From positions 416,880 through 480,879 of the forward strand of contig NZ_JAERQM010000004.1 of NCBI RefSeq assembly GCF_019029495.1: a stretch of 64,000 bases of DNA, read 5' to 3'. A program made the position numbers and the translations under genes. The notes under the pieces are model-generated. The model worked only from the letters and a program-made list of their open reading frames with translations. It searched no databases and was not told where the DNA came from. This DNA is from Falsiroseomonas oleicola. Lineage in GTDB: Bacteria; Pseudomonadota; Alphaproteobacteria; Acetobacterales; Acetobacteraceae. Numbering within the stretch: position 1 is the first letter of the stretch; every line of letters begins with the position of its first letter. Of this stretch, positions 46,504 through 48,028 are shown in pieces.

Positions 46504-47775
46504 ATGACCGATCCCAACCGCCTGACCGCCACCGAAGCCGCCCGCGCCATCGCCGCCGGCCGGCTTTCCGCCACCGACCTGATGGAGGCCTGCCTGGCCC
46601 GCGCCGCGGAACGCGAGCCGGTGGTGCGCGCCTTCGTCCATCTGGACCCCGCCGCCGCCCGCCGCGCCGCAGCCCGCGCGAAGCCCGGCCCGCTTCAGGG
46701 CCTGCCCTTCGCGGTGAAGGATGTTCTGGACACGGCGGAGGCGCCGACCGGCTATGGCTCCCCGATCTGGGCCGGGCACCGGCCGCGCGGCGATTCGGCG
46801 GCGGTCGCCGCGGCCAAGGCGGCGGGCGGCGTGGTGATGGGCAAGACCGTCACCACGGAATTCGCCACCCGCCATCCCGGCGCCACCGCCAATCCGCACA
46901 ACTTGGCGCATACGCCGGGTGGTTCCTCCTCCGGCTCCGCCGCCGCCGTGGCGGATTTCATGGCGCCGCTGGCCTTCGGCACGCAGACGGCGGGCAGCAT
47001 CGTGCGGCCGGCGGCCTATTGCGGCGTGGTGGGCTTCAAGCCGACCTACGGAACCTTCCACAGGGGCGGGATGAAGGTGTGTTCGGAAAGCCTTGATACC
47101 ATTGGCATCATGACCCGCAGCCTGGCGGATTGCGCGCTGGCCATGGGCGCCATGACCGGCCGCGACTATCCGGACCCCGAGGCGAAGCGCGACCGCCCGC
47201 CGCGCCTGCTGCTCAGCCTGGGCCAGGCGCCGGAGGCCGCGAAGCCGGAGACGGTGGCGCTGCTGCATCGCGTGGCGGAGGCCGCGCGCAAGGCCGGCGC
47301 CGAGGTGGTGGAAGCGCCGCTGCCGCCCGCCTTGCTGCTGGCGGCGGAGCTGCACCCCTTCATGATGAACATGGAGACCCGCCAGGGGCTGGCCTGGGAA
47401 TATGCCGAGGCGCGGCCGCAGATCTCCGCCGTGCTGCTCGACCGGCTGGACTGGGCCGGCGGCTTCCCGCCGGCGAAGCTGGGCGAGGCGCGCCGCGCCG
47501 CCATGGCCGCCCGCGCGGCCTTCCTGGACTGGACGGCGGCCTTCGACGCGGTGCTGACCCCGTCCGCACCCGGGGAGGCGCCGGCGGGGCTGCATCATAC
47601 CGGGGAGGCGACCTTCAACCTGCTCTGGACCCTGCTCTACGGGCCGAACGTCACCATCCCGGCCGGCACCGGGCCGGGCGGCCTGCCGCAGGGCGTGCAA
47701 CTTGTGGGGCGCATCGCGGAGGACCCGGCCCTGCTGGGCACGGCGCGCTGGGTGCAGGCGGCGCTGGAGGGTTGA
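46504..47775 (+). CDS. Amidase-signature family amidase
   Basis: A 423-residue amide hydrolase with the Ser-cisSer-Lys triad family layout. LPFAVKDVLDTAEAPTGYGSPIW carries the catalytic Lys, and HTPGGSSSGSAAAVADFMAPLAFGTQTAGSIVRPAAYCGVVGFKPTYG holds the Gly/Ser-rich signature with both serines. The C-terminal half is shorter than in GatA, and no gatB/gatC neighbour is present, so this is a stand-alone amidase rather than tRNA amidotransferase. Natural substrate unknown. The coding region ends 54 bases before a run of five hairpins. Confidence 0.93.
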   Translation: MTDPNRLTATEAARAIAAGRLSATDLMEACLARAAEREPVVRAFVHLDPAAARRAAARAKPGPLQGLPFAVKDVLDTAEAPTGYGSPIWAGHRPRGDSAAVAAAKAAGGVVMGKTVTTEFATRHPGATANPHNLAHTPGGSSSGSAAAVADFMAPLAFGTQTAGSIVRPAAYCGVVGFKPTYGTFHRGGMKVCSESLDTIGIMTRSLADCALAMGAMTGRDYPDPEAKRDRPPRLLLSLGQAPEAAKPETVALLHRVAEAARKAGAEVVEAPLPPALLLAAELHPFMMNMETRQGLAWEYAEARPQISAVLLDRLDWAGGFPPAKLGEARRAAMAARAAFLDWTAAFDAVLTPSAPGEAPAGLHHTGEATFNLLWTLLYGPNVTIPAGTGPGGLPQGVQLVGRIAEDPALLGTARWVQAALEG

Positions 47776-47828
47776 TATCAGCGGCCCTTTTGCGTGACCG
47801 CTCCAGGGTCCCTCAATCGTGCCGCAGG

Positions 47829-47957
47829 CACGCCAGAGGCGTGACGGGCGGAAACCCCCGGTTTCCTTGGCTTCGTCGCGCCAAAGTCTCGCCTTTGGCG
47901 CGACGCACTTGCGGCGGCGCCCATTCGGGCGCTCGGACCGGTCAAGAGACCGGTCCG
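47829..47957. repeat. Five consecutive perfect hairpins (REP-like block)
   Basis: Within 129 bases there are five adjacent perfect inverted repeats: CACGCC/GGCGTG (47829-47843), GGAAACC/GGTTTCC (47850-47866), GTCGCGCCAAAG/CTTTGGCGCGAC (47875-47904), GCGCCC/GGGCGC (47917-47932) and CGGACCGGTC/GACCGGTCCG (47934-47957), with loops of 3, 3, 6, 4 and 4 bases. No T tract follows any, so they are not simple terminators. The block follows the amidase stop and precedes the chemoreceptor by 71 bases. It may be a dispersed palindromic repeat or a structured RNA. Confidence 0.75.
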
Positions 47958-48028
47958 CCGGTATGAGGCGGGGACGTCGCGCCATGGCCTAGTCAGAAGG
48001 TCGGGAATTTAAGCGAAATGAAATCAGT

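Follow-up and report, generated by a model that had tools for sequence, protein, structure and literature searches.

A hairpin-rich intergenic block in Falsiroseomonas oleicola is probably a copy of a MITE-like mobile repeat that is non-autonomous

The 64-kb stretch of DNA analysed here in full (the window) contains a gap of approximately 253 bp, bounded on its left by an amidase gene (PF01425) that terminates with TGA at 47773–47775 and on its right by a gene for a PAS/methyl-accepting chemotaxis protein (start at approximately 48029). An earlier note on this DNA had described five perfect hairpins, none with a T tract, filling a gap of 129 bases. All five inverted repeats were confirmed at 47829–47957, each of them perfect and without a T run behind it; however, the gap is about twice the size given, and the repeated unit extends beyond the hairpins to span 47776–47963 (Table 1). 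Folding of the region 47810–47980, as the note had proposed, returned −100.9 kcal/mol vs −77 kcal/mol (sd 4.75) for dinucleotide shuffles (z = −5.0), with 0 of 200 shuffles equally low.

Table 1. Features of the hairpin-rich element and its flanks in the window
Feature	Sequence or arms	Position	Strand	Remark
Amidase stop codon	TGA	47773–47775	+	Left copy of the putative TNA target duplication
Whole extended element		47776–47963	+	188 bp; ends common to aligned copies
Left terminal inverted repeat	TATCAGCGG	47776–47784	+	Consensus TACCARCGG
Left arm		47776–47810	+	Opens with the left terminal inverted repeat
Conserved linker	CCTCA	47811–47815	+	Nearly invariant in alignments A1, A3 and A4
Optional hairpin module C, first site		47818–47846	+	Holds hairpin 1; missing from simple copies
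Hairpin 1	CACGCC/GGCGTG	47829–47843	+
Hairpin 2 (stem B)	GGAAACC/GGTTTCC	47850–47866	+	Arms freely variable; loop usually UCC or AUCC
Conserved TTGGC	TTGGC	47867–47871	+	Pairing partner of GCCGG across stem B in simple copies; two near-invariant G.U pairs
Hairpin 3 (optional hairpin module C, second site)	CGTCGCGCCAAAG/CTTTGGCGCGACG	47874–47905	+
Hairpin 4 (stem E)	GCGCCC/GGGCGC	47917–47932	+	Loop AUUC
Hairpin 5 (stem F)	CGGACCGGTC/GACCGGTCCG	47934–47957	+	45 distinct versions in 62 copies
Right terminal inverted repeat	CCGCCGGTA	47955–47963	+	Consensus CCGYTGGTA
TGA	TGA	47964–47966	+	Right copy of the putative TNA target duplication

The element is built around a 75-nt core with the layout CCTCARNCGCCGGGCG-hairpin-CTTGGC-hairpins. 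In order, it consists of CCTCARNCGCCGG, stem B (with a UCC or AUCC loop), CTTGGC, TTCG, stem D, stem E (with an AUUC or GUUC loop), CTCGG, stem F and a final GC; the optional hairpin C has two possible sites, both of which are occupied in the window copy. Extended copies carry, in addition to the core, a left arm starting with TACCARCGG and a right arm ending with CCGYTGGTA. These terminal inverted repeats are present in 31 two-armed copies in the host genome, and full copies with the same ends occur in other genera. Core-only copies mostly have no clear TACCA ends, are often preceded by a T-rich tract and seem to continue for approximately 20 nt past stem F, while core-less forms possessing both arms (36 and 67 nt) also exist. 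Separate palindromes of 31–33 nt (TACCARCG...CGYTGGTA) are positioned at L203 (C1:744706), L157 (C1:1192948) and L125 (C12:293703), and some of these palindromes are followed by a T run in the manner of an intrinsic terminator; they have the end sequence of the element in common with it, and the ends of the element may derive from a hairpin of this type. Tandem copies of the element also occur in the host. At L143 (G000:C12:757760–757853), an N run starts directly beside two identical 94-nt tandem copies, and it was probably the repeat that broke the assembly there.

Many further copies were found when the host genome (G000, 5.6 Mb, 30 contigs) was searched as the note had suggested. BLAST analysis of 47780–48000 returned approximately 40 places in both orientations (72–98 % identity), with the best copy besides the window element itself being 92 % identical to it over 192 nt. 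Sixteen simple copies served to build covariance model R1, which detected at least 105 copies at E ≤ 0.05, a lower bound given that only 150 candidates were scored; E values from the models are rough. Helix E of R1 is one column out of register, lowering its sensitivity, and BLAST and inspection of the sequences confirmed the copies that it found; the 75-nt model R3 and the pair counts for alignment A3 use corrected helices. The window itself contains only one clear match to the element model.

The element is not confined to its host. It was detected in 15/15 congeneric genomes (10–101 copies each among the matches listed) and, within the order, in 70/397 genomes and 16/84 genera, all belonging to one family, the copy counts from these large searches being lower bounds. 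Exact matches to one hairpin were found in Falsiroseomonas algicola, Roseomonas ponticola and Plastoroseomonas hellenica. R1 matches outside the family were weak, and on reading they proved to be clear relatives with the same linkers; R3 detected the core across the class in 35/385 genomes, representing 28/277 genera and more than 20 families. In IMG/VR, the core DNA pattern matches at least 66 stretches, many of them directly behind genes that by eye resemble those for portal, capsid or tail proteins, and these regions may be gene-transfer-agent or prophage segments of host chromosomes. One IMG/VR contig (UViG_2708742415_000004; L329, L331 and L290) carries head-to-tail core arrays with a 108-bp period, reminiscent of a minisatellite. 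Inverted core pairs 170–190 bp apart, with their CCTCA ends facing outward, are present at L303, L307, L336 and L344, on contigs that encode portal-like and other genes. BLAST searches of the window element against plasmids and of a sphingomonad-type core against named phages returned no match. The sphingomonad-type core did match plasmids of Sphingobium, Niveispirillum and Azospirillum, with Azospirillum lipoferum among the named hosts, and no feature is annotated under these matches in the plasmid gene tables, which are incomplete.

According to gene calls from a home-made codon-usage caller, in which single boundaries may be off, overlaps of more than 30 bp with a called gene occur in 0/99 host copies, and 96/99 adjoin the 3′ end of at least one gene. 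The neighbouring genes are convergent for 43, co-directional for 53 and divergent for 3 of the 99 copies, compared with 7, 37 and 18, respectively, of 62 background gaps of at least 30 bp (convergent enriched, p = 1e-5; divergent depleted, p = 3e-6). Copies between co-directional genes show no preferred orientation (28 vs 25). In reverse-orientation co-directional copies, CCTCA is read as TGAGG, often a few bases from a start codon (L153, L149, L180 and L183), where it may serve as a ribosome-binding site.

The ends of the element often coincide with stop codons. Among the 31 two-armed copies, a TNA trinucleotide (approximately 2 % of trinucleotides in the window) flanks the left end in 24, the right end in 20 and both ends in 17, and the two are identical in 10 of these 17 (4.8 expected by permutation, p = 0.006). 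The TNA is the exact stop codon of one neighbouring gene in 17/31 copies, on the left in 9 and on the right in 8 but never on both sides, which is the pattern expected from entry into a stop codon followed by duplication. The window copy itself lies between the amidase stop TGA on its left and a second TGA on its right. Against duplication, identical flanks are kept in only 10 of the 31 two-armed copies.

Sites lacking the element were identified in relatives. Using a joined-flank query and alignments, we found that the window copy is missing from the same amidase–chemotaxis gap in the related species G002; G002 also lacks copy C30:64408, as does G007, and copy C25:322268 is missing in three species and the core-only copy C28:300856 in at least seven. 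Model R3 detected no copy in any of the empty-site sequences, whose flanks are too diverged for a base-by-base view of the duplication.

The stems keep their structure while their sequence varies. Among 62 aligned copies, there are 24 sequence variants of stem B and 45 of stem F, most of them perfectly paired, as well as 9 of stem D and 11 of stem E. In the MAFFT alignment A3, 95.1 % of cells pair, vs 82.0 % with shuffled partners and <47 % when slid (covariation score 0.271 vs 0.062), and for A5, which comprises 112 distinct sequences found beyond the family or on viral contigs and was fitted to the model structure, the corresponding values are 95.0 % vs 75.9 % (0.364 vs 0.104). The stems are thus conserved through the compensatory base changes that the note had proposed to look for. 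Its view of the hairpins as a dispersed palindromic element is likewise borne out by the copy number, by these changes and by the empty sites in relatives. Stem changes in A3 affect both arms in 135 cells and one arm in 3, and G.U and A.C occur inside stems at similar rates (56 vs 37); therefore, the stems appear to behave as inverted repeats in double-stranded DNA or as two-strand structures, rather than as one-strand RNA. This does not apply to the near-invariant GCCGG/TTGGC pairing, in which two G.U pairs on the + strand of the window are present in 110/112 and 111/112 sequences of the GCCGG/CTTGGC helix in A5. At one locus shared by two species (L060 and L061), hairpin D is exactly reverse-complemented (GCGGCATAGGCCGC vs GCGGCCTATGCCGC; CATAGG vs CCTATG) and looks as if it had been flipped. 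At another, the same gene pair holds in L233 (G001:C168) a core that is strongly diverged from that at G000 C12:101659 and has different stems, which suggests either that both descend from one old copy or that the site was used more than once.

Taken together, we consider that the hairpin block probably represents a MITE-like mobile element, non-autonomous and moved in trans, of which it is one copy. Under this model, a transposase acting in trans would recognise the TACCARCGG inverted-repeat ends, possibly together with the hairpin-rich core in the form of folded DNA, and would insert the element by cut-and-paste at a TNA trinucleotide, which would be duplicated. As TGA, TAA and their complements TCA and TTA all fit TNA, an insertion at a stop codon would rebuild that codon and be harmless, and the element would be tolerated because it duplicates stop codons. 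Surviving insertions would then be those located between convergent genes or just behind the 3′ end of a gene. The interior would consist of exchangeable hairpins arranged around conserved linkers (CCTCA and GCCGG...CTTGGC). The core and the TACCA ends may move as a unit in all lineages, or core-only copies without clear TACCA ends may spread by a different route. It is not obvious how selfish spread by itself would account for perfect pairing amid sequence change. A related but somewhat unlikely reading is that of a class-wide hairpin family, common to alphaproteobacterial chromosomes and phage-like DNA, whose members would move in a folded form, either as single strands or as cruciforms; a widespread enzyme would read their shape and the CCTCA/CTTGGC linkers, not the arm sequence, and would favour stop codons.

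A candidate for the mobiliser was sought in several places. Nine loci with lone end sites in the host were read, and no transposase was located between matching ends; at L242, a left arm stands alone directly behind a gene resembling that for an Obg-like GTPase. One IS5 subgroup duplicates TNA targets, and IS5-type elements were therefore suspected; at the DUF4096 loci of seven genomes, the ends of these elements do not match TACCARCGG. No parent IS with matching ends was found at the lone host end sites or at the DUF4096 transposase loci of the seven genomes. Such a parent supports, but does not define, a MITE. The earlier note had suggested REP/BIME palindromes mobilised by a RayT-type (Y1, IS200/IS605-like) transposase, and dispersed intergenic palindromes, some of them arranged as inverted pairs, do fit this description. 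However, the corresponding domain (Y1_Tnp, PF01797) returned no match in 15/15 congeneric genomes, with the control positive in five known genomes, so that, within the limits of assembly completeness, RayT is excluded for the genus. In addition, the unit is 75–190 nt in length with several hairpins, terminal inverted repeats and TNA flanks, and REP tags are rare in the cores (CGTC, 5/62; GTAG, 2/62). We regard this as the most improbable of the explanations considered.

The placement of the copies would also suit a function for the host, in which they are kept as two-way 3′-end structures that block read-through or protect mRNA 3′ ends from exonucleases in any orientation. This reading, which we hold to be unlikely, draws on the enrichment between convergent genes and behind stops and the near absence from divergent gaps, as well as on stems that form on both strands nearly without one-strand bias, terminator-like left hairpins and the T-rich tract before CCTCA in core-only copies (peak 46 % T vs approximately 15 % further upstream). 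However, insertion at harmless sites alone predicts the same distribution, copies are gained or lost between species at the same gene pairs, and the five hairpins of the window lack a T run. The mobile repeat may have a secondary role as a two-way 3′-end barrier or stabiliser. The stabilising 3′ end that the note had suggested for the amidase mRNA would suit the location of the copies, 96/99 of which adjoin the 3′ end of a gene.

The structure lends itself to two further explanations. The note had raised a structured small RNA, and one-strand small RNA genes or mRNA leaders would be in keeping with a conserved, covarying structure, with the near-invariant G.U pairs of GCCGG/CTTGGC on the + strand of the window (A5) and with reversed copies that place TGAGG near start codons. 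The covarying stems are real, but the copies are freely oriented relative to genes and the stems are nearly strand-symmetric, making a dedicated small RNA unlikely; with approximately 100 divergent copies per genome and no Rfam match in addition, we consider this explanation highly improbable. Alternatively, pairing in a decaying repeat may be kept by DNA events such as template switching at inverted repeats or cruciform repair, and not by selection for RNA or protein binding, as might be expected where both arms change together (135 two-sided vs 3 one-sided cells), G.U is about as common as A.C and hairpin D is exactly reversed in the orthologous L060/L061. Against this stand the linkers CCTCA, GCCGG and CTTGGC and the loops UCC and AUUC, which are constant class-wide and could stay so only under selection or if they had recently been copied from a source that is itself constrained, and we judge it improbable.

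The behaviour of the element matches that of bacterial MITEs and bcr repeats (PMC2229807, PMC10969869, PMC3446304). As with the MITEs Correia/NEMIS, ERIC/RU-1 and RUP (PMC2229807), it is small, non-coding, dispersed and highly folded, with terminal inverted repeats and a putative target duplication; it differs from them in being G+C-rich, in its apparent target, a 3-bp TNA that in many cases is a stop codon, in its hypervariable compensated stems, in a core common to a bacterial class and in that no parent IS was found. The bcr1–bcr18 repeats of Bacillus cereus, some of which are MITE-like and often located in untranslated regions or operon gaps, are likewise intergenic with conserved structure (PMC3446304), but belong to another lineage and have other sequences, whereas the stems of our element vary almost limitlessly and its core spans many families. 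REPs of the GTAG and CGTC super-families are also palindromic, intergenic and near 3′ ends, mostly in convergent or co-directional gaps; however, they are single tagged hairpins of 20–40 bp and not a 75–190 bp multi-hairpin unit with terminal inverted repeats and TNA (PMC3733652). The CGTC REPs are alphaproteobacterial, have no dedicated transposase and are reported to be missing in Acetobacteraceae (PMC3733652). The CIR repeats of Caulobacter and Brucella, whose mobility is not understood, share the alphaproteobacterial and intergenic setting and stem-loop arms joined by a linker (PMC2229807), but carry GANTC, which is present in only 1/99, 3/62 and 0/112 of the element cores. An earlier survey of stem-loop repeats covers few Alphaproteobacteria, Brucella melitensis and Rickettsia conorii among them (PMC2267715). 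Rfam holds no family matching the element; a hit to DUF3800-XI RNA at 47934–47982 scored 25.4 bits against a gathering threshold of 37.8, was absent in other copies with the same hairpin and was judged to be due to chance. A search for the core strings and for Roseomonas intergenic repeats returned no description in the papers covered.

Many alphaproteobacterial genomes appear to contain this element as a very common component that has gone unrecorded, with at least 105 copies in this host. The element suggests a simple rule by which hundreds of gene ends could be filled harmlessly, namely insertion at a TNA such that the stop codon is rebuilt, and the copies provide a natural set of stems in which the arms change completely while pairing is kept. 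The missing mobiliser is a directly searchable question. In practice, repeats of this kind can interrupt genome assemblies, and they can be misread as terminators or as small RNAs.
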